NCBI GenBank assembly: GCA_003152315.1
Contig: PLZV01000028.1
Span: forward strand, 1-35,742
Direction: 5' to 3'
DNA length: 35,742 bases
Origin: Verrucomicrobiota bacterium
Lineage (GTDB): Bacteria; Verrucomicrobiota; Verrucomicrobiia; Palsa-1439
The notes beneath the pieces are model-generated. The model was not told the DNA's origin. It saw nothing but the letters and a program-made list of their open reading frames with translations, and did no database searches. Both the position numbers and the translations under genes were made by a program. Shown piece by piece: positions 9,438 to 31,053 of this stretch (its first letter is position 1; each line of letters starts with the position of its first letter).

Positions 9438-9838
9438 GATTGGGTGGGCGTCTTTTCCGCCCCGGCCATGCGTCCGGTGGTCGTGGTGTCGCTGTTGGCG
9501 GTGCGGATTTGAATCTGGTCGCCTTCGCCTGTGCGCGACGCATCCACCGCCCCGACGGGAACTTCCAAGACGTAAACGGATTTTTTGACAACGCAAGTGC
9601 GATACGGTGACAGGGCTTTAACGGCGCGGATGACGCACAGATCCTTATCGAGAAACAGCACGTCGATGGGGAAACGCATCCCGAACGTGTGGATCCCGTA
9701 GCAGCGATCCAGGAGCAGGCCCTCGCCCTTGTCAAATCGTCCGCGGTTCAGCAATCCGACCACGCGTTTCAGGACGGTATTTGCAAAATGGCAATTGTCG
9801 GAGACGACTGTTTTCTTCGTGGCGTTAACCAAAACCAT
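9434..9838 (-). CDS. DUF192 family protein
   Basis: This 134-residue protein matches DUF192: RVVGLLNRGRFDKGEGLLL, the core CYGIHTFGMRFPIDVLFLD, and VLEVPVGAVDASRTGEGDQI. The family is small, beta-rich, of unknown function, and often exported, although no signal peptide is seen here. A CAGGAG ribosome site stands about 10 bases before the ATG. It begins 21 bases after the tadC stop on the same strand, making it the probable last gene of the Tad operon. The final 20 residues are Thr/Ala-rich and look disordered. Its TAA overlaps the TAG of the convergent carbonic anhydrase-like gene. Confidence 0.88.
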   Translation of the reverse strand: MVLVNATKKTVVSDNCHFANTVLKRVVGLLNRGRFDKGEGLLLDRCYGIHTFGMRFPIDVLFLDKDLCVIRAVKALSPYRTCVVKKSVYVLEVPVGAVDASRTGEGDQIQIRTANSDTTTTGRMAGAEKTPTQS

Positions 9839-9859
9839 CCAAATCCACTCCTGCGCCGT

Positions 9860-10789: not shown

Positions 10790-10790
10790 A

Positions 10791-11783: not shown

Positions 11784-11784
11784 G

Positions 11785-13083: not shown

Positions 13084-13092
13084 AATCCGCCG

Positions 13093-13100
13093 CACCTCCT
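13093..13100 (-). promoter_or_regulatory. Perfect Shine-Dalgarno deciding the tadA start
   Basis: The minus strand reads AGGAGGTG, an exact complement of the 16S rRNA 3' end, with 9 bases to the ATG at 13083. This excludes the GTG at 13095, which would lie inside or directly on the site. Confidence 0.85.
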
Positions 13101-13112
13101 CCTAGCTCAAAT

Positions 13113-14327
13113 TCATTGCATAAACGAAAACCATTTCCCCGACCGCTTCTTCGCACTCGTGGCCATCGGCGATACAGTTTCTGCCAGGGCCAGGATCGCC
13201 TTCGACACGGGCTTGCCGGGGCTGGAACTAACAAAAGCCTGCCCGAGGTTCACCGATGAACCCACCAGCGCGTCGTCACTCGGGATCTGTGTCGTCACCG
13301 GAAACTCCAGGATCGTCTCGACCTCGGACGCGGAGATCTCCTTCGAATTTGTGGAACGATTGACGATGACACGGATCTTCTCTTTCGGGTAATTGGCGGC
13401 GAGGAGATTCTTCAAGTAAAGCTTCCCGTCCCGTAACCGCGGCAAATCCATTCCCACCACCACGAGAATCAGATCCGAGTAATCCATCGCGGCGAGGGTG
13501 GACTCCAGATTGGCGTAGCCGGTATCGATGACCGTGTACTCGTAATTCTCGCGCAGGGCTTCGAGGATGCTTTGCACCATATAGCGAGAGAGCGTCGAGC
13601 CGTCGAAGGTCCCTGTCAACGGCGCCGCCAGCACCGAGACACCCGACGCATGCTTGGACATGACACTATCAACGACATCGTAGTCGATGCCGCCGAAACC
13701 CGGCAACAGATCGCCCAGCGTGCGCTTGGGTGAAACATCCAGGAGCATGGCGACATCGCCGCCCCAGAGGTTCAGGTCAACCAGCGCCACCTTTTCGCTT
13801 ACACCAGCCAGGGCCACCGCGAGATTCGCGGCAATCACTGTCTTGCCACACCCGCCGCGCGGGCCCGTGATGGTAATGACCCGTCGCTTGGGGCCTTCCG
13901 GCTCCACGGGCGCCGACGGGGTCGCGGCGGTCATGCGTTTCGCCGCCTTGGACTGGATGCCGTGAACTTTACGCACTTCTTCTAGAAGCCGATCCACTGG
14001 GAATGGCCGCGTGAGGAATTCCTTGATGCCGGCACGGAGCATCTTGTGCCAAACCTCCTGGCCTTCCGAGCCCGTCAGGATGAGGATCACGCCCACTTCG
14101 GGCATCTCAGACGAGAGTTGTTCGGCAACCGTCAGCCCGTTAACAATCGGCAGGTCTTCCTTGATAATGACAACCGCCGGTTGATGTCGCTTGACGAGTT
14201 CCAGACACTCCTTGCCATCGCGCGCTTCTCCGATGACCTCGATGTCCTGCTCATTGGCCAACTGGCCCTTGAGCTTCTCACGCTCAGTGAGCTCGTTTTC
14301 CGCAATGATGACGGTGATGCGATCCAT
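13113..14327 (-). CDS. cpaE: Tad pilus localisation protein CpaE/TadZ with pseudo-receiver domain
   Basis: This 404-residue protein has an N-terminal receiver-like domain (1-120) and a ParA/MinD-type ATPase domain (about 148-390). TadZ proteins place the pilus machine at a cell site. The receiver is degenerate: VVIIKEDLP has Lys56 where the phosphorylated Asp is expected, and the conserved Lys near the end is Arg (FLTRPF). The P-loop reads GPRGGCGKT (155-163), with Arg in place of the signature lysine of deviant Walker A motifs, then the ALVDLNLWGGD segment. These changes suggest no phosphorylation and unusual nucleotide handling, as known for TadZ proteins. It lies 29 bases upstream of tadA. 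Confidence 0.92.
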   Translation of the reverse strand: MDRITVIIAENELTEREKLKGQLANEQDIEVIGEARDGKECLELVKRHQPAVVIIKEDLPIVNGLTVAEQLSSEMPEVGVILILTGSEGQEVWHKMLRAGIKEFLTRPFPVDRLLEEVRKVHGIQSKAAKRMTAATPSAPVEPEGPKRRVITITGPRGGCGKTVIAANLAVALAGVSEKVALVDLNLWGGDVAMLLDVSPKRTLGDLLPGFGGIDYDVVDSVMSKHASGVSVLAAPLTGTFDGSTLSRYMVQSILEALRENYEYTVIDTGYANLESTLAAMDYSDLILVVVGMDLPRLRDGKLYLKNLLAANYPKEKIRVIVNRSTNSKEISASEVETILEFPVTTQIPSDDALVGSSVNLGQAFVSSSPGKPVSKAILALAETVSPMATSAKKRSGKWFSFMQ

Positions 14328-14346
14328 AATTCCAGCCTACATCGCT

Positions 14347-14384
14347 CTTGCCAGTATATACCTAGCACTTTTGATACCGGCAAG
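14347..14384 (-). other. Dyad between cpaC and cpaE
   Basis: CTTGCC (14347-14352) pairs with GGCAAG (14379-14384), continued by GTAT/ATAC after one mismatch. It lies in the 74-base gap after the secretin stop. There is no following T run, so an mRNA processing or partial-attenuation hairpin is more likely than a strong terminator. Confidence 0.35.
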
Positions 14385-14401
14385 TGCCAACATCACTGCT
14401 A

Positions 14402-15919
14402 TTACTCCGCCGGTCGGGCCGGAGAATAGTTTGTAGATGGTTCCTGGGCCGGGTTCACGGCTGCCGGTTGGGCCGCAACGGGCGGTGTTACTACCTCAGG
14501 AGCGGCCGCTGCCGGCTGGGCAGGCTTCGCAGCGCGGGCCGGTGCCGCGGCGGCAACTGGTTTGGCAGCTTTCTTCGCCGGCTTTACCGAGTCCTTATCG
14601 TGAACCGGGAAGCCCATATGATCAATATTATGCAAGCCCCAATCGTCCTTCTTATCCGGCGGTTCGATCATCTTTCCCTTGTTCCACGTCGTAACCCAAT
14701 GCTGCAATCCGGGTGTTTGCGGGGCTGCGGCCATGTCGGCGTCAATGTCCTTAATCACTTCCGGGGTCATGAAGAACAGTACTTCACGCTTGGACTGATC
14801 GAATTGTTTGTCACGAAACAGCGCGCCAATGACCGGAATCTCCGCCAGCCAGGGCAACTTCCGCAACACGTCGCGGCTGACGTTGTTTTCCAACAAACCA
14901 CCAATCACGATGGTTTGCCCGTCGTTGACCTGCAGGGTCGTATCCGCCGTCTTTGCGCCGATAATGGGAATGCTATTCGCGCCAGTGCCAATCACCTGAC
15001 TGACTTCCGCGTGAATGACAGTATTGATCCGATTTTCGCTGTCGGCCGTGGGTTTGATCTTCATGCGCACGCCAACTTCCTTGAATTCGACCGTGAACGA
15101 CTGGGGCAACTGCTGGACGATGGGAATCTCTTCACCGACGAGAAAGCTCGCTTCTTTCCCGCTAAAGGTCACCAAAGTCGGTTCCGAAAGAAGTCGCCCG
15201 TAGCTTTTCGTGATCAACATATCCAACAGCATGGTCAATGACACGGTAGATGGGTTGATCGTCGATCCGGCTGTGCCAAACTCACTGGCAGTCGGGACGA
15301 AGCCATTCACGATTGAGCCGCCGCCGACGTACTGCATGGCGTACTGCACCTGGCCTTGCGGTCCAAACCATTGGAAACCGATGTTCTTAATGGCCTCCGT
15401 GTTCACTTCCGCGATGCGGATGCGGACTCTAATTTGGCGGGGCTTGGACACTTCCAAGAGATTGACGACTTGCGCCTTGTACGCGCCAGCGATCTGCGCG
15501 GCGCGCTGTGCTTCAATTTCGTCGTTCACCTTTCCGTCGAGCACCAGCGCATCGCCAATCGCGCGGACGTTGATATTGTTGTTTCCAATCATCTGGCGGA
15601 TGGTGACAGCCGCGGCGTCGTTGCCGACTTCAATGCGATACATCTGGGTCGGCGAGGCATCGCTCTTGACGATCGTCAGCGTGGTGACGCCGGCTTTCTT
15701 GCCGATAACGCTAAGTTCCTTGTCGGACAGATTGACAACGTCCGCGATGGACGGGTCGGCCAGGGCGATTTTCGAGACATTCTCGCTCGGAATCGAGACG
15801 GCCTCACCGACACTCACCTGAATGCTTTGCTGTTCAGCGCGGGCGTCTGGAATCACCAATAGCCCAGCGGCCAACAGCACCACAATAATCCCCATTCCCC
15901 TCCATTGTATCTTCTTCAT
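14402..15919 (-). CDS. cpaC: Tad pilus outer-membrane secretin CpaC/RcpA
   Basis: This 505-residue secretin forms the outer-membrane channel for the Flp pilus. It has a signal peptide (GIIVVLLAAGLLVIPDARA, cleavage expected before EQQ), an N-terminal pilus-secretin domain (SVGEAVSIPSENVSKIALAD; ELSVIGKKAGVTTLTIV), a BON-like segment (RAIGDALVLDGKVND), and the secretin core with SFLVGEEIPIVQ, LQVNDGQTIVIGGLL and the end motif IPVIGALFRDKQFDQSKREV followed by LFFMTPEVI. The last 75 or so residues are an Ala/Pro/Lys-rich tail, longer than usual and probably disordered. An AAAGGA ribosome site precedes the ATG. It lies 42 bases after cpaB. Confidence 0.96.
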   Translation of the reverse strand: MKKIQWRGMGIIVVLLAAGLLVIPDARAEQQSIQVSVGEAVSIPSENVSKIALADPSIADVVNLSDKELSVIGKKAGVTTLTIVKSDASPTQMYRIEVGNDAAAVTIRQMIGNNNINVRAIGDALVLDGKVNDEIEAQRAAQIAGAYKAQVVNLLEVSKPRQIRVRIRIAEVNTEAIKNIGFQWFGPQGQVQYAMQYVGGGSIVNGFVPTASEFGTAGSTINPSTVSLTMLLDMLITKSYGRLLSEPTLVTFSGKEASFLVGEEIPIVQQLPQSFTVEFKEVGVRMKIKPTADSENRINTVIHAEVSQVIGTGANSIPIIGAKTADTTLQVNDGQTIVIGGLLENNVSRDVLRKLPWLAEIPVIGALFRDKQFDQSKREVLFFMTPEVIKDIDADMAAAPQTPGLQHWVTTWNKGKMIEPPDKKDDWGLHNIDHMGFPVHDKDSVKPAKKAAKPVAAAAPARAAKPAQPAAAAPEVVTPPVAAQPAAVNPAQEPSTNYSPARPAE

Positions 15920-15961
15920 TTCACGCGGTCCTTTCCTTTTTCGAATTCCTGTGAACTTCTA

Positions 15962-16798
15962 CTATTCTTGCGGCACAATCGTCTCTTGTGAACCCCTGTA
16001 AATCTTGAGTTCCGGCCGCTGGTTTCGCGGCGGGCTGATAATGATCGGCGTCGACCTCGACACGTCGGGAGGCGTCGTGGAGAATTTGAGGGTGTTAGGG
16101 CCGCCGAAATCCCGCGTGCCAACACCCTGGGTTGCGATCACCGTTTTCTCGTTGAGACCGCGCAGCGCCACCCGTAACGCGCCGGCGCGATCCGCGGCTG
16201 TTAGTAATTCCGCCTCTTCCGGCTTGACCGCCAGCGTCATCGAACTCTTGGCGCCTTGCTTAATCTGCTGATCGGTCACGCCCTCGTTGACGGCGAGAAC
16301 GAGCACGTTTTGCAGGATCATCTGTGTGGTTTCCTGATGCACGACCGGATCTGAATACGTGGCCAAAATGTCAACGCGGTCACCGGGTTTCACGGACCCA
16401 CCGGCGGCCATGACCTCGCCGGCGCCGATGGCAATGGCGCGCATGCCTGGGGGAATGTCATACGCCAGCCCCGGAGCCTGTCCCGCACCCAGAAGGTCGT
16501 TTGCACGAATCTGTTCCTTGGCCTTGATTCTCACCAAGGTAGTATGTCCGTCCACGTCCTTGGGATTTCGGATGGCACCGTCGATGACAAGCTCTTTCGG
16601 GTAGCGGGTCAACGTAACCATTTCGCGGGTTATTTTGGTGCGCGCCGGGATATCCTGCAGCGCAGCAACCACTTCAGTCCAATACTTCTCGGACTGGAGC
16701 TCTTGCTGCCGCTGCATATTCCAAATAAAATAAACGGCGAGTATTGCCAAAACGACAGCAACCAAAATGATCCCGCCTGCACCAGATTTCTTAGCCAT
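15962..16798 (-). CDS. cpaB: Tad pilus assembly protein CpaB/RcpC
   Basis: This 278-residue protein has one N-terminal membrane helix (GGIILVAVVLAILAVYFIW) and a SAF domain (VVAALQDIPARTKITREMVT) followed by the RcpC domain (LAYDIPPGMRAIAIGAGEVM; GSVKPGDRVDILATY). CpaB/RcpC is a periplasmic part of the Tad machine thought to bind peptidoglycan or the secretin. An AAGGAGG ribosome site stands 6-7 bases before the ATG. A gap of about 400 bases separates it from flp, so it may start its own transcript (see the sigma-54-like site at 16835-16849). Confidence 0.94.
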   Translation of the reverse strand: MAKKSGAGGIILVAVVLAILAVYFIWNMQRQQELQSEKYWTEVVAALQDIPARTKITREMVTLTRYPKELVIDGAIRNPKDVDGHTTLVRIKAKEQIRANDLLGAGQAPGLAYDIPPGMRAIAIGAGEVMAAGGSVKPGDRVDILATYSDPVVHQETTQMILQNVLVLAVNEGVTDQQIKQGAKSSMTLAVKPEEAELLTAADRAGALRVALRGLNEKTVIATQGVGTRDFGGPNTLKFSTTPPDVSRSTPIIISPPRNQRPELKIYRGSQETIVPQE

Positions 16799-17195: not shown

Positions 17196-17369
17196 TTACG
17201 GCAAGTTCGCATTCACTGACGACAAGGTGTTATTGACCTTATTGCCGAGGCCCTTCAGCACCAGGATCGCCACGACGGCGATGAGAGCCAGGATAAGCGC
17301 GTATTCGACCAAGCTCTGGCCCTTCCGCGACTTCAGCCCGCGATACATTTTTCGGAGAGTTCTCTTCAT
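17196..17369 (-). CDS. flp: Flp/Fap-type pilin
   Basis: This 57-residue prepilin is the structural subunit of the Tad pilus. The leader is 17 residues of mostly Lys/Arg ending in Gly17. The mature part starts QSLVEYALILALIAVVAIL, with Glu at +5 and Tyr at +6, exactly the Flp signature, followed by a short hydrophilic tail (NKVNNTLSSVNANLP). Cleavage by a TadV-type prepilin peptidase is expected between Gly17 and Gln18; no such peptidase is encoded in this window. The ATG at 17369 is chosen because AAGGAGGTG (17376-17384) lies 6 bases upstream; earlier in-frame starts (17387, TTG at 17411) lack this. It heads the Tad locus and has its own promoter candidate. Confidence 0.95.
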   Translation of the reverse strand: MKRTLRKMYRGLKSRKGQSLVEYALILALIAVVAILVLKGLGNKVNNTLSSVNANLP

Positions 17370-17375
17370 CTCGTT

Positions 17376-17384
17376 CACCTCCTT
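17376..17384 (-). promoter_or_regulatory. Strong Shine-Dalgarno of flp
   Basis: The minus strand reads AAGGAGGTG with 6 bases to the ATG at 17369. This near-perfect site fixes the pilin start and predicts high translation. Confidence 0.85.
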
Positions 17385-17448
17385 CATCTGGCTTTTTTTC
17401 GTATTGCTCAACGATCCAACAGACTCACGTTAGTGCTGGAATGCAATC

Positions 17449-17956: not shown

Positions 17957-19564
17957 TCACCGCAACAACTTCACCGCCTCCGTAGGTATGAAATACAGAT
18001 CGTTCTCCGATTGCGGCAAGACCTTTGCGCTCGCGAGCGACAGGTACGGGGCGAAGATCTCCAACTTCTCCCCCGGCGGCACCACCAGCACAACGCCCTC
18101 TTTGCCATCGATGTTGAGCTTGTCGACGAACTCGAGGTGCCCGTTTCGCACCAACCACATCGGTTTGCCCGGCGGATGCAAGGCCGTTCCATCGACCACG
18201 AATTGGTATTGCTCGTACTCCGGCAGGATAAGCTGAAAGTGCCGCAAACCGCACAGGTAGTACTCTTCCGAAAAACAGAGGACGACGCTCTTCGGCGAAT
18301 ACGATCGCCGGATCGTCCCGGCAATTTGCATCAATTGTGCGTCATGCTCTGCGATCGCGTGGGCGGTCCGTGCCATCCCGAAGAAAAGGCCATCCCATTG
18401 TGGTGGCCAAACGGCAAAGGCCACCACGTTCCCCGCGCAGATCACAGCGATCACCGCCGTCCTGCACCACTTTGACTGCAGGCTCGCCACCACGGCCCCT
18501 AGCAGCACAAACCATCCTGGCAGATAACTCAACACGTGGCCGGGTTGGTTGGTGACGAACACTGTCCCCAGAATCATCATCGGGACAATCCAAAGCGCCA
18601 AGACCACCAACCCAGACGCGTGTTCGCTATCCCAAGAACTCTTCTGCTCGGCCGTCATTCGGAACGCTCGGTGCAGATGCGCCACGAACAACACCACGGC
18701 CCCCAGCATCAAGCCGTTACCACAGAATCCCGTTATGTTTGCCACATTCTTCAGCAGCGCATCCAAGCCGCCTCCGGGAAAATACGTCGAAGCATTGGAG
18801 GCCGCGTGCAAATGCACAATGTCCAGGTACGTTCTCAGCCCGCCGGACGTGCGTACCATCGGCACGAACCACAGAATTCCAAGTCCGACCGCCACCACCG
18901 ACACTGTCGCCAATTTCGCAAGCCGCGCCCTTTCGAATCTCCAAAACGCAAACACAACCAACGGCACCAGTGCCGGCACACTTTGCTCACGCACTCCCCC
19001 AATCAGAGCCAGCAACGCTCCCACCACGATCGCATCTCGCCACCCGCCCCCGCGCTCCATCGCCCGCCAGAGCACCAGCACCACCGTGCAAACCAGAAAG
19101 CTGTCCACGCAGTACGTCAGGGCGACACAACTATGGAACCACACTTGTGGACTCGTCAGCGCCAACAATCCCGCCGTCACACCCGCCTTCCGCCCGAACA
19201 TTGCCGTCGCCAGAAGATACACGACTGCCGGCAGCGCGCTCCCGAAAACGACACTGATCCATACCAGGCTCGCGTGCGGATCGCCCACCAAGCCGTTCAC
19301 TAGCCGCCCCAACATGATGTAGAGGAAATAGCCCGGTGCATGCGGCTGGCTCAATCGTATGTCGTATTCATTGATCGCCAGTGCAAACTGCGCGCTGTCC
19401 CAGTGGTACGCAAACTGACTGCGAAAGGGTATTCGCAAGGCAAGGGCAGCGGCGAACAACACAACCGCCATCGCAACGTCGGCCTTGCGCAACTTCTCTC
19501 CGCTCCCACAGCCTGTTCTTGTCCCAGCGCTTTTCAATCTGTCCTCCAGATGCCGTTTCCGCAT
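17957..19564 (-). CDS. GT-C type membrane glycosyltransferase (GT39-like)
   Basis: This 535-residue polytopic protein has ten or more hydrophobic segments by eye. After the first (AMAVVLFAAALALRI) comes a loop with HWDSAQFALAI (Asp at about 56) and then HAPGYFLYIMLGRLVNG, a pattern common in GT39-like lipid-linked sugar transferases of the GT-C fold. The C-terminal 120 residues look soluble and periplasmic. It probably uses a polyprenyl-phosphate sugar; donor and acceptor are unknown. The ATG at 19564 is chosen because GGAGG stands 9 bases upstream; an ATG at 19573 would touch that site. It is the nearest island gene to the Tad locus, in the same direction, but separated by the flp promoter region. 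Confidence 0.75.
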   Translation of the reverse strand: MRKRHLEDRLKSAGTRTGCGSGEKLRKADVAMAVVLFAAALALRIPFRSQFAYHWDSAQFALAINEYDIRLSQPHAPGYFLYIMLGRLVNGLVGDPHASLVWISVVFGSALPAVVYLLATAMFGRKAGVTAGLLALTSPQVWFHSCVALTYCVDSFLVCTVVLVLWRAMERGGGWRDAIVVGALLALIGGVREQSVPALVPLVVFAFWRFERARLAKLATVSVVAVGLGILWFVPMVRTSGGLRTYLDIVHLHAASNASTYFPGGGLDALLKNVANITGFCGNGLMLGAVVLFVAHLHRAFRMTAEQKSSWDSEHASGLVVLALWIVPMMILGTVFVTNQPGHVLSYLPGWFVLLGAVVASLQSKWCRTAVIAVICAGNVVAFAVWPPQWDGLFFGMARTAHAIAEHDAQLMQIAGTIRRSYSPKSVVLCFSEEYYLCGLRHFQLILPEYEQYQFVVDGTALHPPGKPMWLVRNGHLEFVDKLNIDGKEGVVLVVPPGEKLEIFAPYLSLASAKVLPQSENDLYFIPTEAVKLLR

Positions 19565-19665
19565 CGTGCCCATCCTCCGCGAGCCGCCAACCTGCCACCG
19601 CGCAATCCGGGACGATCAACGTGCCAGCGTCAGGATCGATGGCGGCAACGGCGGAAAGTAGCATT

Positions 19666-20189: not shown

Positions 20190-21458
20190 TCAACTTTGTC
20201 CACCGCTGAGGCGTGGAGCCGATTCCCGCTGGATCCGGAGTTCCCGCCAGAAAAAAATCCCCAATCCGAAAAGTCCATAGAGCGGGAGGTTGCTAACGAG
20301 AATGTACAGGAGCTTGTGCCGCCAAAGAACCGGCGAATCCGGTGGATCGACACAATTCACTGCCACCACGAGCAGTATCAAATAAACCACTTTCCCCGGC
20401 GTGGGTCTCGTCGCCATGCGGATCGCTACCGCCGCGAGCGGAAATACCAGAAAAACAAAATAGTGGCCCTGCACCGTGATTGTTCCAATCAACATGGCCA
20501 CGCACAAGAGGCAAAACTCCGCTTCTCGATCGCCACGGGTCGTCAGACAGGCGCCATAAGCCACAGCGATGACCACCAAACCCACAACCGTTCCTGCGGA
20601 CCACCACCACTGCTTTGCTTCGGGAGATGGATGGAAGTCATGGTACAGGTAGCCGAGATTGGTCACCAGCGCCGGCAGGGAGAAATGAAACGTGCGCCCG
20701 ATTTCCTCCCCAACACCCATCGGTAGACCGTAGTGAAAGAAGTCACGCCAAAGACCGGGTCCCGTCAATGCCATCACCGCGAGCACAAACCCGCTGGCTC
20801 CCGCCATTCGATAGAGGCGCGCGCGCAGGCCACCGCCGCCGGACCAGACAAACCACGGCAACAGGACAAAGGGATAGAACTTGAGGATGCCAGCCGTGGA
20901 AACCGCCAGGCACGCCCAACCGTGTCGGCCGGCCCGATGCGCCGCATACGCGGCCAGGACGAGGGCGGCCAACAATAATTGTACCTGCGAGAAGAAGAGA
21001 TTGTAACTCACGGTCCGAGAACAGACGGCCAGCATGACGACAAATAGCCAACCCCGCCCGGACAGCTTCTTCCCCAACAACCTGTGCGTCAACCAGAGAA
21101 TGGCCGTCAAACAACCGATCTCCAACGCCACCCAGATGGCGAACGCCACCCGTGGCGGCAGCGCGGCCAGGGGCGCGAACAACCAGAGAAAACTGGGTGG
21201 ATAACCGGCAATCGGGTATTCCTCGGAAAACTGGAACCCGAGGGCCTCGCTCATTGGCTTTTGCAAGGTCGTGTAAGGATTCCGCCCGTCCAACAGCGTC
21301 CGGCTCCCAACGTAGTAAAGATTGAAATCGAAATCGGACCAACGCGACGGGAGCACCTCGGCCCACAGGACAACGACCGACACCATGACCAGGATGGCCG
21401 CCACATCCAGCAATCGATTCCGCGCCAACCGTCGTAACCAGTTCATTGTTTCATTCAC
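20190..21458 (-). CDS. DUF2029/GT87 family membrane glycosyltransferase
   Basis: This 422-residue protein has about ten membrane segments. It shows the GT87 (DUF2029) layout: after the first helix, SDFDFNLYYVGSRTLLDGRN with a DxD at 42-44 followed by PY, then YPPSFLWLFAPLAALP, a helix with FFSQVQLLLAALVLAAY, and STAGILKFYPFVLLPW. GT87 members are polyprenyl-phosphate-mannose-type transferases in the membrane, related to PimE. The sugar and acceptor here are unknown. The GTG at 21458 is favoured because GAAGG stands 6 bases upstream; the ATG at 21446 lacks one. The gene follows a related-looking gene on the same strand, and the pseudogene lies 70 bases downstream. Confidence 0.82.
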   Translation of the reverse strand: MNETMNWLRRLARNRLLDVAAILVMVSVVVLWAEVLPSRWSDFDFNLYYVGSRTLLDGRNPYTTLQKPMSEALGFQFSEEYPIAGYPPSFLWLFAPLAALPPRVAFAIWVALEIGCLTAILWLTHRLLGKKLSGRGWLFVVMLAVCSRTVSYNLFFSQVQLLLAALVLAAYAAHRAGRHGWACLAVSTAGILKFYPFVLLPWFVWSGGGGLRARLYRMAGASGFVLAVMALTGPGLWRDFFHYGLPMGVGEEIGRTFHFSLPALVTNLGYLYHDFHPSPEAKQWWWSAGTVVGLVVIAVAYGACLTTRGDREAEFCLLCVAMLIGTITVQGHYFVFLVFPLAAVAIRMATRPTPGKVVYLILLVVAVNCVDPPDSPVLWRHKLLYILVSNLPLYGLFGLGIFFWRELRIQRESAPRLSGGQS

Positions 21459-21628: not shown

Positions 21629-23164
21629 TCAGTTCAATCCGGAAGCTTCATTCGTCCCTCGCACGGGACGATACACGTAGAAAGCGTCACCGTGCATACC
21701 CCAACCGCAACGCGTCTCCATGACATAATGCCCGGTCGCTGCTTCCAGCCACCGCACCGGAAACTGCCGCGGCAGGGCCTTCTCTTCCAATGGAAAACTG
21801 GCCACGATGGCGTCAAATCCACCCGCCGCAATCCGCTGGCGCAACTCGGTATCGTCAAACTCCCCCACTTCACCCAGCGCTTCGAGATGTTGCGGGTAGA
21901 GCAGGAACATCTCCCGGGACTGACGCGCGGCGAGATACAAATCTTCCACGAGCACCCGTCCCTTCCATTCCCCAAGGCAGTTCGCGACCCGATCCCACTC
22001 TTGCGCTTGTTGTGCGCGTGTTACGCGATGATTGACGACCTCGCCCCACCACTCGGAAACGTGTCCGACCCGCGACCTCAGGGTCATCGCCGAAATCACG
22101 ACTGCCAGTCCCAACCAGCCAATCGCAACTCTCGGGGCAAGGTTGTCCACAGCCGGATCGGTCCCGTACCGCACCAGCCCGGCGCATAACACACAGGCCA
22201 TGGCGAAGGGTTCAAGGTAGTAGTTGACGGTGGCGCCGAACTTGATCGAGGTCACCACCGCGATCGCAAAACTAATGGTGTAGCTCCACCGCAAGAGCGT
22301 TAACCGTTGATCGCCGCAGGTCACCACGCCCGCCAGCCAGCCGCCCGCAAACACCGCGATTCCCCTGATCATCGCCATCCGCAACCACATCCACATCTGG
22401 GCTGGCGATACCCAGAGCATAACGGCGCCAAACGCGTTCTTCAGAAATGCTCCCCGGCTCAGCGCCTGGGTGACCATGATACTCACCGCAACGGCGATTA
22501 CCCAACTGCCGAACACAGCGGCGGCCCGGCCCCATCGTCGCTGGGTTGTTTCCGTGGCCACGATGGCCAGCCAGACCGCGACGAAGGTTTGTTTGTGAAG
22601 GAATGCCGCAACCAGCAAGGCCACGGTTGCCGCGAGGGCCAGCCAGGATGTGCGTCGTTGATACAGCCACAGCGCACCCAGCGACAATAACAGCGCCGGC
22701 GCATCCGGCCGATAGGCAATGGCCCATTGCCAGGCCAGAGCCCCGGCCAACCACATGAGGCCAGCCATTGCCGCGAGCGAAACCTCGCAACCGATCTGTC
22801 GCCCAAGTGCGTATAGTGCCAGGGCTACGCCAAACCAGGCCACGTAGGTGTAGGTCCGACCGCAAATAATCATCCCGATCCACGATGTGTTCAGCAGCCG
22901 TGCTACCGTGCCCGGCACCGCATAGAACAGTGGTCCATATAATGCCACCACGTGCGGGGGCCGCGCGAAATCATGGTAGGGGGTCTCACCATTACGCGCG
23001 CAACGCAGCCCGTACAGGGGTTCCGCGTCCGACCAGAGCACTTCGCCGTCGAAATCCAGGTTCGACACGAGGTGCAACTGCAAGAGCAGGGCCGACGCCA
23101 GCAAGATGGCCAATAACAACCAAAGCAGGCGGCGGCTGCACTTCGCCACCGCAGCGTTGCTCAT
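21629..23164 (-). CDS. GT-C type membrane glycosyltransferase-like protein
   Basis: This 511-residue polytopic protein starts with a membrane helix (LLWLLLAILLASALLLQL). The first periplasmic loop reads LWSDAEPLYGLRCARNGETP, with a DxE at 46-48, followed by PHVVALYGPLFYAVPG. This arrangement is typical for GT39-like and related GT-C transferases. A long series of helices follows, and the last 150 residues look soluble (VEDLYLAARQSREMFLLYPQ). GAGG about 8 bases before the ATG at 23164 supports the start. It is divergent from the paralogue quartet (111-base gap) and is followed on the same strand by the GT87 gene after 170 bases. Donor and acceptor unknown. Confidence 0.7.
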   Translation of the reverse strand: MSNAAVAKCSRRLLWLLLAILLASALLLQLHLVSNLDFDGEVLWSDAEPLYGLRCARNGETPYHDFARPPHVVALYGPLFYAVPGTVARLLNTSWIGMIICGRTYTYVAWFGVALALYALGRQIGCEVSLAAMAGLMWLAGALAWQWAIAYRPDAPALLLSLGALWLYQRRTSWLALAATVALLVAAFLHKQTFVAVWLAIVATETTQRRWGRAAAVFGSWVIAVAVSIMVTQALSRGAFLKNAFGAVMLWVSPAQMWMWLRMAMIRGIAVFAGGWLAGVVTCGDQRLTLLRWSYTISFAIAVVTSIKFGATVNYYLEPFAMACVLCAGLVRYGTDPAVDNLAPRVAIGWLGLAVVISAMTLRSRVGHVSEWWGEVVNHRVTRAQQAQEWDRVANCLGEWKGRVLVEDLYLAARQSREMFLLYPQHLEALGEVGEFDDTELRQRIAAGGFDAIVASFPLEEKALPRQFPVRWLEAATGHYVMETRCGWGMHGDAFYVYRPVRGTNEASGLN

Positions 23165-23275: not shown

Positions 23276-24817
23276 ATGGCTGCGAACGCAAACCCAACGG
23301 AAGCGGAGTCTCCTGCATCACCATCGTCGCGCCGTGACGTGCTCCCCTGGCTGACGCCATCACTTACCCAGTGGTTCTGGCTGGTCATTTTGTTGATCCT
23401 GCTCGCGCAACCCTGGCGCACCATGATGGTCGCCAGTGATGGCGATGCCTGCCTGCATTGGCGCGTCGGCGAATACATGCTCGAAACGGGTCACATCCCA
23501 ATTCGCACCGACGTATTTTCGCACACGCGCTTCGGCCAGCCTATCGTCTCGAAGGAATGGCTGTCGGAACTCATCTTCGCCGTGGCGGGCCGGCGGGCGG
23601 GATTATATGGACTGATCGTCGTCGCTGCGCTGTTGATCGCTTCGACCTTCGCCCTGCTTCACCGACAGTTGGTGCGTGAGACCGGCAATCACGCGGTGGC
23701 AATCTTCGTGGCGTTGCTGGCCGCCAGCGCGGCTTGCATGCATTGGCTGGCGCGACCACACGCCTTCAGCTTTCTCCTCGCAGCCCTGTGGGGTGATGCG
23801 CTCCGCCGGTTTGACCGGGGTGAATCGGCCTGCCGACTCCTGATGACTCTCAGTGTGCTGACAGTCCTCTGGGTCAATCTGCACGGCGGCTATCTCGCTG
23901 GCTTCATTACGTTGGGTATCTACTGGTTCGGCACGATCATCGAATTATTCCTGGCCCGGACGGACCGCACACACTGGGGCGTCGCGCGCCGGAAACTCAA
24001 CGTGTTGACGGGCGCTATCGTGCTCGTCGGGGTGGTTTCGCTGCTGAACCCAAACGGTTATAAGCTTCACGTTCATAATCTTCATTTTCTTCACTCGGAT
24101 TACCTCACGAGTTGGCTGGCGGAATACGCCTCTTCCAATTTTCACGAAATAGATTCGCGCGGGTTCCTGGCCTGGCTGGCAGTCACCTTTCTGACGTTGG
24201 CAGTGGTGCGGCCACGACTGTCGCCAACGGCGGGACTGATGCTGATCGTCTGGACATACTTGGGGCTCTACGCGGCCCGCAACATCCCGCTACTGGTGAT
24301 CTTTGTGGCGCCAATTCTCGCCACCACGCTCGCCGACGCGTCCCCGCCGTGGGTGCGGCGGTTGTCAGATCGGCTGCGCGAGACATATATGATGTCGCGC
24401 GGCTGGTTGCTCGTCGGGGTGGCCGCGCTCGTGGCCATTGCCGTGGTGCCACGCCCGACGGAGATGCCGCCAAAGAAGTGGCCCGTGGCGGCGGTCGAGT
24501 ACATCCAGCAACATCCTGAACAGTTTCAGGGCAACATGTTCAACCATTACGTCTGGGGTGGGTACTTACTGTACGCGCTGCCAAAACATCTCGTGTTTGT
24601 GGATGGTCGCACGGATTTCTATGGGGAATCATTGATCCGCCAATACAATGACACTTCGGCGCTGCAAACAAACTGGATGCAGGCCCTTGAGCAGTATCAC
24701 GTGACCTGGACCTTGCTGCCTACCGAGCATCGCCTGAACCTTGCACTCGCCCTGCTGCCGGGTTGGCAATGCGTTTACTCCAACGAGGTGGCAGCCGTTT
24801 TCCGCAAACAACCGTGA
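23276..24817 (+). CDS. Polytopic membrane protein, tandem paralogue 1 of 4
   Basis: This protein is 513 residues from the ATG at 23276; a TTG at 23240 in the same frame is a possible longer start. About ten membrane segments are seen by eye. Motifs shared by all four paralogues: DGDACLH after helix 1 (the DxDxxxH motif, Asp55, Asp57, His61), RTDVFSHT, KEWLSELIF, MHWLARPH, NLHGG, NPNGYKLH, NFH...RGFL, ARNIP, and near the C-terminus FVDGRTDFYG then WTLLPTEH. I do not recognise a named family. An acidic DxD in the first extracytoplasmic loop suggests a GT-C-like glycosyltransferase, which is inference. This copy is the most diverged in its N-terminus. It overlaps the next gene by GTGA. Confidence 0.8.
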   Translation: MAANANPTEAESPASPSSRRDVLPWLTPSLTQWFWLVILLILLAQPWRTMMVASDGDACLHWRVGEYMLETGHIPIRTDVFSHTRFGQPIVSKEWLSELIFAVAGRRAGLYGLIVVAALLIASTFALLHRQLVRETGNHAVAIFVALLAASAACMHWLARPHAFSFLLAALWGDALRRFDRGESACRLLMTLSVLTVLWVNLHGGYLAGFITLGIYWFGTIIELFLARTDRTHWGVARRKLNVLTGAIVLVGVVSLLNPNGYKLHVHNLHFLHSDYLTSWLAEYASSNFHEIDSRGFLAWLAVTFLTLAVVRPRLSPTAGLMLIVWTYLGLYAARNIPLLVIFVAPILATTLADASPPWVRRLSDRLRETYMMSRGWLLVGVAALVAIAVVPRPTEMPPKKWPVAAVEYIQQHPEQFQGNMFNHYVWGGYLLYALPKHLVFVDGRTDFYGESLIRQYNDTSALQTNWMQALEQYHVTWTLLPTEHRLNLALALLPGWQCVYSNEVAAVFRKQP

Positions 24818-26349
24818 AGGACGCTTCGCCCCATGCCGACGCCCGCGCCCGCGGGTGGCTTCCGTCGCTGAGCGCGATGATCTGGATTGTGCTCTTTCTC
24901 GGGTTGACCCTGACCGATGCCCGGATCGTTCTGATCAGCGCCGATAGCGACCCCGCCCTCCATCGCCGGCTTGGCGAGTGGATGATCCAACACCACGCCG
25001 TCGTGCGCGAGGACCACCTACTGCATACGCATCAGGGGCCATTTGTGTCGATGGAATGGCTTAGCGACGTGTTGTTCGCGGCAGCAGGACGTGTCTGTGG
25101 CTGGAATGGCGTTGTCTTCATCGCGGCCGCAACTATCGCGACGTGCTTCTGGCTGCTTCATCGTCAACTGCTTGCGGACGGCTGCGACGCCATACTCGCG
25201 ACGGTTCTGGTTCTTGTGGCGATGCTGGCTTGTTCGATGCATTGGCTGGCGCGACCGCTGGTCTTTACGCACCTGCTGACGCTGGTCTTTGCCGGGCAAT
25301 TACGCTCGTTCCAACACGGGCGTGTGTCCGCGCGACAGATGTTCCTGCTCTTGCCGCCGTTGATGGTTTTGTGGGTAAACCTGCATGGTGGTTTCGTCCT
25401 GGGTCTCGTGCTTCTCGCCATGCATGCAGTCGGCAGCACGCTTACCGTCCTGCGCCAACCCGCCGTGCGCAACAAGTCGCGGGCGCTCACGACACTGCTT
25501 TTCGCCTGCGGTGCGGCCTCGTTGGTTAACCCGAATGGTTGGAAGTTGCATTCTCACATTTTGGATTTCCTGCGATCGCCCGAGCTTTCCACCGCCACCA
25601 CCGAGTTTGCTTCCCCGAATTTCCACACCGTCGGCATGCACGGATTCCTGTTGCTGCTGTTCCTGCTGGGGGCCGCGCTGGTGATCATCCGTCCCAAACT
25701 CGACGCGACAGAAGTGCTCCTGGTGGGCGGGTGGGGTTGGTTCGCGTTGCTCTCCGCGCGGAACGTTCCCATCTTCGCTCTCGTCGTAACTCCGCTCCTG
25801 GCGCAATGGATCACCGAATTCCTACAGGCCAGTGACCGTTCCGAGTGGTGTCGATCATACCGGAGATGGGCAGCACGGACGATGCCCGTCGACCGCGCCG
25901 CTGGCGCCGCCATTGCTATCGCCGTGGTCGTTTGTGTAACGCTCATCATGGCCAAACCCGCCATCGCCGGCGGCGCGCCCGTGCTCGCGACCGATTTTCC
26001 GCCGAACCGCTATCCAACGGACGTGGTCAGCTATCTCCGGGCGCACCCAGGGTTGATCCACGGAAAGATGTTCAACCTCTTCCTCTGGAGCGGCTATCTC
26101 GAGTTCGCGTTTCCAGACCATGAACCGTTCGTCGACAGCCGCAATGATTTCTACGGCATCGACTTGATGCGGGAGTTCCGCATTGCGAATGATCCAAAGC
26201 CAGGATGGGAGGCAGTGTTCGCCAAATACCACGTCGACTGGACGATGCTACCGGCCCAACACCCGTTGAATCAAATCCTGCAACTCTGCCCGGATTGGCA
26301 GTTGGTCTTCTCGAACCGCCAGGCGCTGGTCTATTCACGACGGCCATGA
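24814..26349 (+). CDS. Polytopic membrane protein, tandem paralogue 2 of 4
   Basis: This 511-residue protein starts at a GTG whose last two bases begin the TGA of paralogue 1 (GTGA, 24814-24817). The start is chosen because it gives the same 4-base overlap as the next two junctions and the same N-terminal length as copies 3 and 4; an upstream ATG at 24763 would overlap by 55 bases. It keeps the family motifs: DSDPALH (Asp44, Asp46, His50), MEWLSDVLF, MHWLARP, VNLHGGF, NPNGWKLH, NFHTVGMHGFL, and FVDSRNDFYG (Ser in place of Gly), then WTMLPAQHPLN. The second loop is unusual: EDHLLHTH replaces TDxFSHT of the other copies. Function unknown; a GT-C-like role is possible. Confidence 0.8.
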   Translation: MKDASPHADARARGWLPSLSAMIWIVLFLGLTLTDARIVLISADSDPALHRRLGEWMIQHHAVVREDHLLHTHQGPFVSMEWLSDVLFAAAGRVCGWNGVVFIAAATIATCFWLLHRQLLADGCDAILATVLVLVAMLACSMHWLARPLVFTHLLTLVFAGQLRSFQHGRVSARQMFLLLPPLMVLWVNLHGGFVLGLVLLAMHAVGSTLTVLRQPAVRNKSRALTTLLFACGAASLVNPNGWKLHSHILDFLRSPELSTATTEFASPNFHTVGMHGFLLLLFLLGAALVIIRPKLDATEVLLVGGWGWFALLSARNVPIFALVVTPLLAQWITEFLQASDRSEWCRSYRRWAARTMPVDRAAGAAIAIAVVVCVTLIMAKPAIAGGAPVLATDFPPNRYPTDVVSYLRAHPGLIHGKMFNLFLWSGYLEFAFPDHEPFVDSRNDFYGIDLMREFRIANDPKPGWEAVFAKYHVDWTMLPAQHPLNQILQLCPDWQLVFSNRQALVYSRRP

Positions 26350-27908
26350 CAAACATTTCGTCCCATGCGGAAGAAGCCTCGCCACGACGGTGGTGGCTGC
26401 CGTCGCTCACCCAATTCCTCTGGATCGCGTTCTTCCTGGCCATTCTCTTGACCGACTGGCGCCAGGTGCTTATCAACGCTGATGGTGACCCGTGCTGGCA
26501 TTGGCAAACGGGCAATTGGATGATCGAACATCACGCCATCATGCGCACCGACCTGTTTTCCCACACCCGACCCGGTGCGCCGTTCGTGACGAAGGAATGG
26601 CTGAGCGAGGTGCTCTTTGCGGCAGCGGGAAACCGGCTCGGCTGGAACGGTGTGGCGCTGGTTGCGGCACTGGTCATTGCGACCACGCTGGCGCTGCTGC
26701 ACCGGCAACTCCTGGCCGAGGGGAGCGACACGCTGCTCTCAACGGCGCTGGTTATGCTATCGGCGTTGGCCTGCTCGATGCATTGGTTGGCGCGACCACA
26801 TTTGTTCACGTTGTTCTTCGTGGTCGTCTTCGCGTGGCAACTGAGGTGGTTCGATCGTGACCGCGTGGGCTCGCGGCAGCTTTTCCTGTGGCTGGTACCC
26901 CTGACAGTATTGTGGACAAACCTCCACGGAGGGTTCCTCGCGGGACTCACTCTCATCGGCATCCATTTCGTCGGCAACATCGTGCGCGCGCTAATGGACA
27001 GTACGTCCTCACGACCCGCTTTACGCCGCCGGGTGATCACGCTAGGGATTCTGGGGGTGACCTGTGCGCTGACGACGCTCCTGAATCCGAATGGGTGGAA
27101 ACTCCATCAGCACCTGCTGAGTTTCTTGCGGGACCCCTCGCAGTCGTATTTCACGAGCGAGTGGAACTCCGCCAATTTCCACTTTGCCGGGATGCGCGGT
27201 TTCACGCTGCAGTTGTTGGTTCTCGGATTCATGTTGGTCGTCCTCCGCCGGCCTTGGGCGACCACCGATCTCCTCCTCATCGCTTTTTGGTTATACTCAG
27301 GACTGAACGCCATGCGTAACGTGCCGATCTTCGCGCTGATCGCCACGCCAATTTTCGCTGAACACCTGTCCGCCGGGTGGCAGGGTGTGCGCGAATCGGT
27401 ATGGAGTCGCTCGTTGCGCAGGGTCTCAAATGACGTGGGTGCGCTGAATCGCGTTGCGGGTGGCAACGGTCTGGTGGCTGTGGTCATCGGGGCCATGCTG
27501 CTCATTCTGGCAAAACCAGTACTTGTCGGAGGCCCCCCAGTTGTAAAGACGGAGATTTGGGCGAATCGGTTTCCGGTGGCAACCGCGAATTACCTGCGAG
27601 CACATCCGGAGACTGTCCACGGCGAGATATTCAACGAGGATGGTTGGGGTGGCTACCTCATCCTCTACCTGCCAGAACGCAAGGTATTCATCGACGGCCG
27701 CGACGATTTCTATGACGAGGCGTTGCTCCACGAGTTTGCCGACGTCTCGCACCTGACCCCTGCCTGGGAGAAAGTGCTCGGAAAATATCACGTCGGCTGG
27801 ACGATGTTGCCCGTGCAACATCCGCTGAATCGCATTTTGGAAATGCGGCCGGACTGGCAGTTGGTTTACTCCAACCAAGTGGCGCTCGTCTTCTCTCGCG
27901 CGTCATGA
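26346..27908 (+). CDS. Polytopic membrane protein, tandem paralogue 3 of 4
   Basis: This 520-residue protein begins at the ATG in the ATGA overlap with paralogue 2 (26346-26349). Approximate layout: short cytosolic N-terminus, helix 1 at 22-42, DGDPCWH motif (Asp46, Asp48, His52), TDLFSHT at 69-75, KEWLSEVLF at 83-91, helices to residue 340 with MHWLARPH (145-152), NLHGGF (192-197) and NPNGWKLH (247-254), a last helix around 376-390, and a soluble C-terminal part with FIDGRDDFYD (448-457) and WTMLPVQHPLN. All landmarks align with the other copies. Function not known. Confidence 0.8.
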   Translation: MTNISSHAEEASPRRWWLPSLTQFLWIAFFLAILLTDWRQVLINADGDPCWHWQTGNWMIEHHAIMRTDLFSHTRPGAPFVTKEWLSEVLFAAAGNRLGWNGVALVAALVIATTLALLHRQLLAEGSDTLLSTALVMLSALACSMHWLARPHLFTLFFVVVFAWQLRWFDRDRVGSRQLFLWLVPLTVLWTNLHGGFLAGLTLIGIHFVGNIVRALMDSTSSRPALRRRVITLGILGVTCALTTLLNPNGWKLHQHLLSFLRDPSQSYFTSEWNSANFHFAGMRGFTLQLLVLGFMLVVLRRPWATTDLLLIAFWLYSGLNAMRNVPIFALIATPIFAEHLSAGWQGVRESVWSRSLRRVSNDVGALNRVAGGNGLVAVVIGAMLLILAKPVLVGGPPVVKTEIWANRFPVATANYLRAHPETVHGEIFNEDGWGGYLILYLPERKVFIDGRDDFYDEALLHEFADVSHLTPAWEKVLGKYHVGWTMLPVQHPLNRILEMRPDWQLVYSNQVALVFSRAS

Positions 27909-29470
27909 CCAGTGACACTACCAACGCCCTGACTATTCCGCGCCGCAGCCCGTGGCTGCCCACCATCGGGTTGTCCCTTTGGCTGATCTTCATGCTGGGA
28001 CTTTCGCTTTCGCAATGGCGGCTGGTCATGATCAACGCGGACGGTGACCCGTCTCTGCATTGGCGGATTGGCCAATGGATGATCGAGCACCGCGCCGTGA
28101 TTCACACTGACGTCTTCTCCCACACGCGCCCCGGTAAGACTGTGGTGACGATGGAGTGGCTGACCGAAGTGACGTTCGCTGCAGCCGGTGACGCGCTCGG
28201 CTGGAATGGCATCGTGTTGTTGGCGGCGGCATTCATCGCCACCAGCCTGTGGATCCTGTATCGCCAACTGTTGTCCGAAGGCAACGACGTCTTGCTCTCA
28301 ACCGGGTTGACCCTGCTGGCGGCCACGACCTGCTCCATGCACTGGCTGGCACGACCGCATGTGGTCTCATTCGCTCTCCTGACGTTTTGGGCCTGGCAAC
28401 TCCGCGCTTTTGAACAGGGTCGCCTGTCCACGCGCCGATTATTTGTGGTGCTCTTACCCTTAACCGCGCTGTGGGTCAATCTTCATGCGGGATTCCTCAC
28501 CGGTCTGATATTGATTGGTGTTCATTTTGTCGGCGCGGGTACGGAGTTGCTGACCCGAGATGCCGCACAGCGCACGATCGCCCGTGGCCGGATGGCGGTG
28601 TTCATGTTGCTAGGAGTCAGTTGCCTGGTAGCGTCGCTCGCCAATCCCAACGGCTGGAAGTTGCATGCCTATATCCTCGATTTTCTGCAATATCCGAAAT
28701 TGGTCGGCTTGGTGAACGAATTCCGTTCGCCTGATTTTCACTCGAACGGTACGCGTGGATTCTTGATGATGTTGTTGGCGCTCGCCTTCACATTGGTTGT
28801 GGCGCGGCCGCGACTCAGCCGGACCGAAACCCTTCTGGTCGGCTGGGCGGGATGTTTTGCGTTGCGTTGGGTGCGCAACCTGCCGATTTTCGCGATCGTG
28901 GTGACGCCGATTTTGGCGCAACACCTGACTCTCTGGCTGCAGCAGCCCCTCGATTCCGGCCTCCTGATGTGGTACCGGAAGACTTGCAACAAGGTGAGCG
29001 AAATCAACCGGCGCGTGGACGGCCGGTGCTTGGTGGGGATCGTGTTGGTGATGCTGCTGTTGGTGGTCGCCAGACCGCGGGTGGTGGGCGGTGAACCAAT
29101 CCTGGCCACGGAATTACTGACGAATCGATTTCCAGTGGCTGCCGTGCAATTCCTGGAGCGGAACCCCGCGGTGGTGCACGGCGAGATGTTTAACGACTAT
29201 GGTTGGGGAGGCTATCTCATGCTGGCGCTGTCCGCGCACAAGGTCTTCGTGGACGGACGCAACGACTTCTATGGGTCGGAACTCATTCAGGATTTCGATA
29301 CCGTGAACCGGGTTCATCCCGGCTGGGACGACGTCCTGCAAAAATATAAAGTCGGCTGGACGATCCTGCCGCGCGCACACCCGTTGAACGAACTGCTCGC
29401 GCTACGCAAGGATTGGAGCCTGTCGTATAAGGATGATGTCACTGCCATTTATTCCCACCATCTGGAATGA
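27905..29470 (+). CDS. Polytopic membrane protein, tandem paralogue 4 of 4
   Basis: This 521-residue protein starts in an ATGA overlap with paralogue 3 (27905-27908). Family motifs: DGDPSLH (Asp46, Asp48, His52), TDVFSHTRPG, MEWLTEVTF, MHWLARPH, VNLHAGF (Ala for Gly), NPNGWKLH, DFHSNGTRGFL, VRNLPIFA, FVDGRNDFYG and WTILPRAHPLN. It is the last gene of the quartet and ends 7 bases before the stop of the convergent sigma-54 activator. No terminator hairpin fits into that gap. As for the other copies, an inner-membrane location is clear and the activity is unknown. Confidence 0.8.
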   Translation: MTSDTTNALTIPRRSPWLPTIGLSLWLIFMLGLSLSQWRLVMINADGDPSLHWRIGQWMIEHRAVIHTDVFSHTRPGKTVVTMEWLTEVTFAAAGDALGWNGIVLLAAAFIATSLWILYRQLLSEGNDVLLSTGLTLLAATTCSMHWLARPHVVSFALLTFWAWQLRAFEQGRLSTRRLFVVLLPLTALWVNLHAGFLTGLILIGVHFVGAGTELLTRDAAQRTIARGRMAVFMLLGVSCLVASLANPNGWKLHAYILDFLQYPKLVGLVNEFRSPDFHSNGTRGFLMMLLALAFTLVVARPRLSRTETLLVGWAGCFALRWVRNLPIFAIVVTPILAQHLTLWLQQPLDSGLLMWYRKTCNKVSEINRRVDGRCLVGIVLVMLLLVVARPRVVGGEPILATELLTNRFPVAAVQFLERNPAVVHGEMFNDYGWGGYLMLALSAHKVFVDGRNDFYGSELIQDFDTVNRVHPGWDDVLQKYKVGWTILPRAHPLNELLALRKDWSLSYKDDVTAIYSHHLE

Positions 29471-29477
29471 GCCACGG

Positions 29478-30869
29478 TCAGCGAATCGCGTCGGGGTCGA
29501 TCTGGTATTTTTTCAACTTGGCGTAGAGCGTCGTGCGACTGATCTGGAGGGTCTCGGCGGTGCGCTTGATATTGCCCGAATGTTGGCGGAGCGCATTGAT
29601 GAGAATTTGTTTCTCGGGTTCTCCCAGTTGGTCGGCCAGCGCGGCCGACTGCGATCCCAATACCGGCTTGGATTCCGTAATGCGCCTGGGCAGATCACTG
29701 GCATCGATGAGCGAGGATTTCGCCAGCACCACCGCTTGCAGGACCACGTTTTCCAGTTCGCGCACGTTACCGGACCAGTTGTACCGGCACAACACATCGA
29801 TCGCGGCGTCGGTGAAACCGCGTAAATCCTTGCCGTTCTGCCGGGAAAACCGTCGCAGAAATTCCATCGCCAGTAACGGGATGTCCACCGTGCGATCGCG
29901 GAGCGGCGGCAACTCGATCTGCACGACATTGAGCCGGTGATAGAGGTCCTCCCGAAAAATCCCCTCGGTTACGCAGGTTTCCAGCGGGCGGTTCGTCGCC
30001 GCAATGATGCGCACGTCCACCGAGATCGACTTGGAACCGCCCACGCGCTCGAACGTGCGCGTCTGTAACACACGCAACAGTTTTGCTTGTACGTTGAGAT
30101 TGATGGTGGCGACTTCGTCCAGAAAAAGAGTTCCCGCGTTGGCTCGCTCGAAGCGGCCGACGTGACGATCCACCGCGCCCGTAAAGGCCCCTTTTTCGTG
30201 ACCGAACAACTCGCTCTCCAAAAGCTCGCGGGCCAGCGCGGTGCAATCAAGCGTGACAAACGGTTTGCCATGGCGCCCGCTCGCTTCGTGAATGGCACGG
30301 GCCACGAGTTCCTTGCCCGTCCCGGTTTCTCCGTGGATCAGCACGTTGGCGTAGGAATCAGCGATGGTTTGGATCAACTCGAACATATCGCGCATCTGCG
30401 GGTTCTGGCTGATGATCCCGTAGAAGCCTTGCACCGGCGCGGCGAGCAGTCCCCGGGTCCGTGGATCCACAACGGAGGTTCGCACCAGAGTCCCGATTTC
30501 ACGTACTACCTGCCCAACACGCTCTCGCAGCGTCGTCAGCGCCCCGGGATCCTCTGACTTCTGGAGGTAATCGAAGATTCCCAGTTTGGTCGCCCGAACT
30601 GCCTGTTCCACCGTCGCCTTGGCGGTGTGGACGATGACCGTGGTTTCCGGGAAAACCTGGCGCATCTGCTCCAAAAATGCGGTGCCGTCCGTCCCAGACA
30701 TATTGATCTCGGCAATGACGATATCAATGCTCCGTGCGTCCAGAAGCAGCATTGTATCCTCGACCGAATTCGCCGAAAACATCTCACATTCGTCTTGAAT
30801 GAGGAGCTCTGACAGCTTGAGGGTCCAGGAAATATCTTGGTCTACTACCAGTATCTTCGCTCTTGGCAT
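29478..30869 (-). CDS. NtrC-family sigma-54-dependent response regulator with Glu at the phosphorylation site
   Basis: This 463-residue protein has the three NtrC domains. Receiver (1-120): acidic pocket VVDQD, but IVIAEINMSG has Glu54 where the phosphoacceptor Asp stands; Thr82 and Lys104 are kept. AAA+ domain (about 155-395): Walker A GETGTGKE (180-187), the sigma-54 contact loop GAFTGA (227-232), Walker B GTLFLDEV, and the Arg-rich sensor FREDLYHRLNVV. C-terminus (420-455): Fis-type helix-turn-helix (NIKRTAETLQISRTTLYAKL). The ATG at 30869 follows GGGAGGGG by 8 bases. It activates sigma-54 promoters by ATP-driven remodelling. No histidine kinase gene is adjacent. The Tad pilin promoter is a candidate target. 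Confidence 0.95.
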   Translation of the reverse strand: MPRAKILVVDQDISWTLKLSELLIQDECEMFSANSVEDTMLLLDARSIDIVIAEINMSGTDGTAFLEQMRQVFPETTVIVHTAKATVEQAVRATKLGIFDYLQKSEDPGALTTLRERVGQVVREIGTLVRTSVVDPRTRGLLAAPVQGFYGIISQNPQMRDMFELIQTIADSYANVLIHGETGTGKELVARAIHEASGRHGKPFVTLDCTALARELLESELFGHEKGAFTGAVDRHVGRFERANAGTLFLDEVATINLNVQAKLLRVLQTRTFERVGGSKSISVDVRIIAATNRPLETCVTEGIFREDLYHRLNVVQIELPPLRDRTVDIPLLAMEFLRRFSRQNGKDLRGFTDAAIDVLCRYNWSGNVRELENVVLQAVVLAKSSLIDASDLPRRITESKPVLGSQSAALADQLGEPEKQILINALRQHSGNIKRTAETLQISRTTLYAKLKKYQIDPDAIR

Positions 30870-31053
30870 GTCCAGCGCCCCTCCCGACATGTAAACCTGG
30901 CCGGCCAACACCCTGACCTGCAGGCGCTGCCACGTAGGCGGCGTCTACACTATGTTAAGCACCTTCCAAGCCAAAGGAAAACGGCCAGTCATACTTTTGG
31001 GGGCGCAAAGTGGACATGTTCATAGGCTCCGGTAGTCTATCTGTCAAGGCTTA

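Follow-up and report, generated by a model that had tools for sequence, protein, structure and literature searches.

Four overlapping paralogues of an unnamed family are probable extracytoplasmic GT-C glycosyltransferases that may act on a Tad pilus

The array and its neighbourhood

The window (the whole stretch of 35,742 nucleotides that was analysed) carries four similar genes in a row, which raises the question of what the encoded proteins do and why one genome would keep four of them. A first-pass annotation made from the sequence had described four head-to-tail genes of 511-521 amino acids with four-base overlaps (GTGA, ATGA and ATGA), and the open reading frame coordinates agree with this exactly:

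23276..24817, + strand, array copy 1: ATG start, 513 aa, GT-C-like membrane protein; copy-1 clade support 100/99
24814..26349, + strand, array copy 2: GTG start, 511 aa; GTGA overlap with copy 1
26346..27908, + strand, array copy 3: ATG start, 520 aa; ATGA overlap with copy 2
27905..29470, + strand, array copy 4: ATG start, 521 aa; ATGA overlap with copy 3; the copy modelled with AlphaFold

We consider it probable that these genes encode paralogous extracytoplasmic GT-C glycosyltransferases of an unnamed family, possibly acting on the Tad pilus. The four proteins are 37-51% identical in pairwise comparisons and more than 100 alignment columns are invariant across them, which puts their kinship far above chance. 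The motifs HWLARP and NPNG[WY]KLH are present in all four, as had been noted; DGRxDFYG, also listed as common to all, occurs unaltered only in copies 1 and 4 and reads DSRNDFYG in copy 2 and DGRDDFYD in copy 3, a small overstatement. The annotation as polytopic membrane proteins was borne out by hydropathy and by the structure model of copy 4, which concur in adding a soluble C-terminal domain. The array region held no match to a sigma-70 promoter and none to Rfam, and terminator counts there were near chance level.

The genes surrounding the array are as follows:

9860..16798, − strand, Tad pilus operon: CpaB/RcpC, secretin, TadZ-like, TadA, TadB, TadC
17196..17411, − strand, Flp-type pilin of 71 aa, sequence GQSLVEYALILALIAVVAI
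17957..19573, − strand, PMT_2 family GT-C glycosyltransferase (PF13231, E 1.3e-9)
20190..21458, − strand, GT87 family GT-C glycosyltransferase (PF09594, E 6e-27)
21629..23164, − strand, unnamed multi-TM protein, the divergent neighbour of the array; weak match, below cut-off, to the NCBIfam cell-surface glycopolymer model AZOBR_p60025
29478..30911, − strand, NtrC-type response regulator, on the other flank of the array from the GT-C and Tad genes

The NtrC-type regulator adjoins the array, or lies one gene off, in five further genomes (G002, G004, G007, G008 and G009). The other GT-C genes of this island are also multiplied in the sister species G002, which has three tandem copies of the PMT_2 neighbour and two of GT87 (L034 1403-5993; L033 16539-19100).

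Predicted fold and putative active site

The first-pass annotation had recognised no characterised family. This held for named sequence families, as none of the four proteins matched a Pfam or NCBIfam model, and PADLOC was also without a match; it did not hold for structure, which places the proteins in the GT-C superfamily. Sequence searches of the PDB returned chance matches only (e.g. AKT kinase at E ~1) and phage records held no match to the array. The PMT_2/ArnT and GT87 Pfam families matched neither the array proteins (at E <= 1) nor 13 aligned members of the family. No match to PF02516 (STT3) was found in the four proteins or in the whole genome, although the model does recover members from other genomes of the phylum. 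STT3-type oligosaccharyltransferases (OSTs) are encoded in two genomes of the phylum (L058 646-2781 and L059 94-2295, both on the − strand); one resembles archaeal AglB (SWPYG) and the other is nearer PglB (WWDNG). The family itself is listed in databases only as 'hypothetical protein' and occurs in Verrucomicrobiota, Chloroflexi-type metagenome-assembled genomes (MAGs), Acidobacteriota and Proteobacteria; for this widespread group, the structural placement supplies an identity and a function that can be put to the test.

Copy 4, alone of the four, was modelled with AlphaFold2 from an input of 13 family sequences (mean pLDDT 85.1, pTM 0.85). Foldseek comparison of this model with the PDB gave CeDPY19 as the best match (E 8e-7), followed by AglB (1.5e-5), AftD (5e-5) and then AftA, ArnT and Pmt, with no match outside GT-C at E < 0.1. 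VIA structural alignment gave Z 20.1 to eukaryotic STT3 (451 residues, 4.5 A), 17.1 to PglB, 16 to AglB, 15.4 to ArnT and 15.0 to DPY19, with unrelated proteins from about Z 5 down. The C-terminal 117 residues, predicted alone, reached pLDDT 93; their top Foldseek match was the AglB dome (3vu0, E 3e-4), and GT-C luminal domes filled the first 27 VIA rows (Z 10.9 to 5.7), the next, unrelated protein scoring 4.0. Such a dome has been reported as a structurally conserved element of GT-C enzymes that are diverse in other respects (PMC10154233). The copy 4 model also has the transmembrane module and long first extracytoplasmic loop of the superfamily, and the array proteins are predicted with near certainty to share the GT-C fold.

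Residue conservation was computed over 67 family members from several phyla and is given in copy 4 numbering, in which the elements of interest are:

28040..28072, + strand, first extracytoplasmic loop DGDPSLHWRIG (D46, D48, H52, G56), putative GT-C acidic catalytic motif
28718..28720, + strand, E272, putative counterpart of the OST TIXE/SVSE glutamate
28874..28876, + strand, R324, inside the segment that hhalign pairs with AglB at 80% probability
29117..29467, + strand, C-terminal luminal-dome domain (residues 405-521), with FNxxxWGGYL and VFVDGRxDFYG

The conserved polar positions include D48 (88%), E272 (97%) and R324 (90%); conservation is also high at W190-x-N192-x-H194 (100, 99 and 96%), N247-P248 (97 and 96%) and D450-x-R452 (99 and 97%), and all highly conserved polar residues are retained in the four array copies. 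Each copy has the DxD-type acidic motif of GT-C enzymes, D46-x-D48, after the first transmembrane helix, in a loop predicted from the model to face outside.

Comparison of the family profile with an OST profile of six sequences by hhalign gave 80% probability around R324, and in a colinear global profile alignment D48 falls at the AglB GNDPW loop. In a separate local alignment E272 lies opposite E389 of the STT3-like protein L058, at a probability of just 5.5%; single-sequence hhalign comparisons, controls included, did not exceed this value. Drawn from few sequences, these profile alignments are a hint of OST kinship and not proof. The array proteins resemble STT3, AglB and PglB in their whole-length fold (Z 20-16), in having a luminal dome at the C-terminus and an acidic motif in the first loop, and in a conserved Glu and Arg whose positions are plausibly equivalent. 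They differ in lacking PF02516, in being shorter (~520 aa), in giving no significant single-sequence comparison, in their arrangement as coupled tandem paralogues and in the dome, where the OST WWDYG was not found and the family has FNxxxWGGYL. The tryptophan C-mannosyltransferase DPY19, the best Foldseek match, has a dome in common with them but is eukaryotic, longer and without detectable sequence kinship. ArnT/PMT_2 and GT87 enzymes, each represented by one gene in the window cluster, likewise share the GT-C fold, but the array proteins match neither in Pfam.

Neighbourhoods of relatives and the candidate acceptor

Plasmids of the proteobacterial genera Azospira, Sulfuricystis and Phyllobacterium encode relatives in an operon ordered GT2, SAM methyltransferase, GtrA and one or two family members. 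A GT2-methyltransferase-GtrA module is the usual setting for a GT-C enzyme using polyprenyl-phosphate sugars. In G667, from the Chloroflexi class discussed below, the order is GT87, a GT87-type gene, a GT2-methyltransferase fusion, two family members and Tad genes; the best NCBIfam model for the fusion is AglJ (below cut-off), followed by other polyprenyl-phosphate-sugar synthases. These GT2 and GtrA neighbours point, indirectly, to a putative polyprenyl-phosphate donor for the family. The Gtr-type combination of GT2, GtrA and GT-C in one locus is present in the three plasmid-borne relatives, and the array proteins share with multi-component Gtr-type systems a DxD in an extracytoplasmic loop; they differ in belonging to another sequence family, in occurring as two to four tandem GT-C copies and in their setting, as we identified no GT2 or GtrA gene within the window. 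The closest GT2 of the source genome (G000) is on another contig and is 61% identical to that of G667. The Azospira and Sulfuricystis plasmids carry matching modules with two family members (L054 9627-14960 and L055 9615-14953) between plasmid maintenance and transfer genes, possibly as a mobile glycosylation module.

The array proteins are very probably active glycosyltransferases. Each copy would take a sugar from a polyprenyl-phosphate-type donor on the external side of the cytoplasmic membrane and pass it to an acceptor held under the OST-like C-terminal dome. In this scheme D46 and D48 of the first extracytoplasmic loop and E272 are the putative catalytic residues, and R324 would sit close to the phosphate of the donor. 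The acceptor may be the Tad pilus or the surrounding surface glycan, as is suggested by the neighbouring PMT_2, GT87, Flp pilin and Tad genes.

The Tad and GT-C cluster adjoins the array in four genomes (G001, G002 and G007 besides the source genome). Outside the phylum, the Chloroflexi MAG UBA6077 has the order CpaB-TadZ-TadA-TadB-TadC-DUF192 followed by two family members, and 16 of the 29 genomes of its class have a strong family member. In 12 of these 16 (G646, G648, G650, G659, G660, G661, G663, G665, G666, G667, G668 and G670) a member and Tad genes are no more than about 11 kb apart; for three of the four unlinked genomes the member is on a contig of less than 12 kb. By chance, such linkage would be expected at roughly 1% of family loci, given some 1.4 RcpC places in a genome of about 4.6 Mb. 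The 12 linkages are not independent events, since the genomes are related and four of them have a common his-operon neighbourhood, but no fewer than four local arrangements are represented. Tad, DUF192, the array and an ATP synthase operon lie within about 20 kb both in UBA6077 (L053) and in the window, a neighbourhood common to two phyla.

With Tad linkage seen in two distant groups, the pilus or its surrounding glycan stands out as a promising acceptor. The linkage is not general to the broad family: at 37 other Verrucomicrobiota loci, some of them on short contigs, Tad genes were nearly absent, with one weak secretin match, and Tad linkage was also absent from the f4 single-copy genomes. 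RcpC has been implicated in glycosylation of Flp pilin (PMC12307814), and the array proteins are candidates for the enzyme behind this modification, where so far only RcpC has been implicated. A conserved N-glycosylation sequon in the Flp pilins was considered and rejected; the genus has NNT and G007 has NNK, so this site gives no support for pilin N-glycosylation.

There is close to an even chance that the array instead serves the synthesis or decoration of a free surface polysaccharide or lipid (LPS or exopolysaccharide) unrelated to Tad, in what would be a general surface-glycan island. Among known bacterial three-component GT-C enzymes, the majority act on polysaccharides (PMC11127046, PMC8035078). 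Members of the broad family are mostly away from Tad genes, no Tad gene is annotated within 12 kb of the plasmid relatives, and PMT_2 and GT87 paralogues share the island; the recurrence of Tad adjacency in two distant groups with differing local gene orders argues against this explanation. A polysaccharide acceptor is at least as likely as the Tad pilus, and the pilus or pilin as acceptor is a tentative proposal that we hold with low confidence. Held with similarly low confidence is a family dedicated to Tad-pilus glycosylation in Verrucomicrobiota and Chloroflexi-type bacteria, in which several co-translated OST-like GT-C paralogues would add different sugars to the minimal Flp pilin or to pilus-associated proteins; if true, this would be an unknown class of pilus glycosyltransferase.

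Age, copy number and division of labour

Whatever their acceptor, the copies are not of recent origin. Orthologues of copies 1-4 in the source genome and in the sister species G002, which carries all four, are about 86, 70, 85 and 82% identical, and dN/dS between the two genomes is 0.12, 0.22, 0.17 and 0.19, respectively, indicating that each copy is maintained by purifying selection. Identity between paralogues is 40-50% by comparison. In the tree, the copy-1 clade (100/99) is sister to a clade of copies 2, 3 and 4 (100/100), each of which forms its own orthologous group within the genus with a moderately supported branching order. Orthologue identity above that of paralogues, the tree and dN/dS agree with the first-pass view of old, diverged paralogues; a recent strain-specific expansion is ruled out by the orthology with G002 and the divergence of the paralogues.

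The survey of tandem copies which that annotation had called for found four, three, two or one in related genomes. G001, of the same genus, carries copies 1, 2 and 4, the overlap between 2 and 4 being intact; other genera of the same bacterial family have two, one of copy-1 type and one copy-4-like; and f4 genomes of the genus g10 have a single gene of copy-1 type. On this sequence evidence the split between copy 1 and copies 2-4 is placed as older than the bacterial family. Growth of a GT-C enzyme from one to four coupled copies is unusual as a genetic design. The copy-1 homologue of G004 is broken into two reading frames (L041 7813-9287), being either a pseudogene or an assembly error, and between it and the copy-4-like gene a further diverged member (25% identical to copy 1) occupies 9353-10609.

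Every junction is an NTGA overlap in the source genome, G002, G001, G007, G003, G009, UBA6077 and a separate pair in G032. It is probable that the co-translated copies have different acceptors or linkages, or that they assemble into hetero-oligomers, and we lean, with moderate confidence, towards distinct specificities for the four. That they form one hetero-oligomeric enzyme rather than four independent ones is unlikely, although a four-nucleotide overlap at all junctions of the verrucomicrobial arrays examined and of UBA6077 would suit it, as would the hetero-dimeric GT-C precedents Pmt1-Pmt2 and EmbA-EmbB, both among the VIA fold matches. Since GT-C hetero-dimers exist, a complex and separate enzymes are both possible readings; the single-copy homologues of f4 genomes and the absence of copy 3 from G001 with the 2-4 junction intact nevertheless indicate that the full set is dispensable, which argues against an obligate four-part complex. 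It is very improbable that these proteins have the GT-C fold but no catalytic role, serving instead as scaffolds, transporters or assembly factors, a reading that draws on the missing WWDYG and the lack of an identified donor, but is countered by retention of the first-loop acidic motif, E272 and R324 in all four copies and nearly all 67 relatives and by the placing of relatives beside GT2 and GtrA genes.

The source genome also encodes a distant fifth paralogue of 804 aa (L005, G000:C46:54786-56234; 26% identity), in which the GT-C domain is fused to a C-terminal TPR region. This is the domain order of the animal TMTC O-mannosyltransferases, which have a GT-C domain with a C-terminal TPR region; the array members, unlike the fifth paralogue, are without TPRs. 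Open frames comparably long to that of the fifth paralogue are found in G001, G002 and G005.
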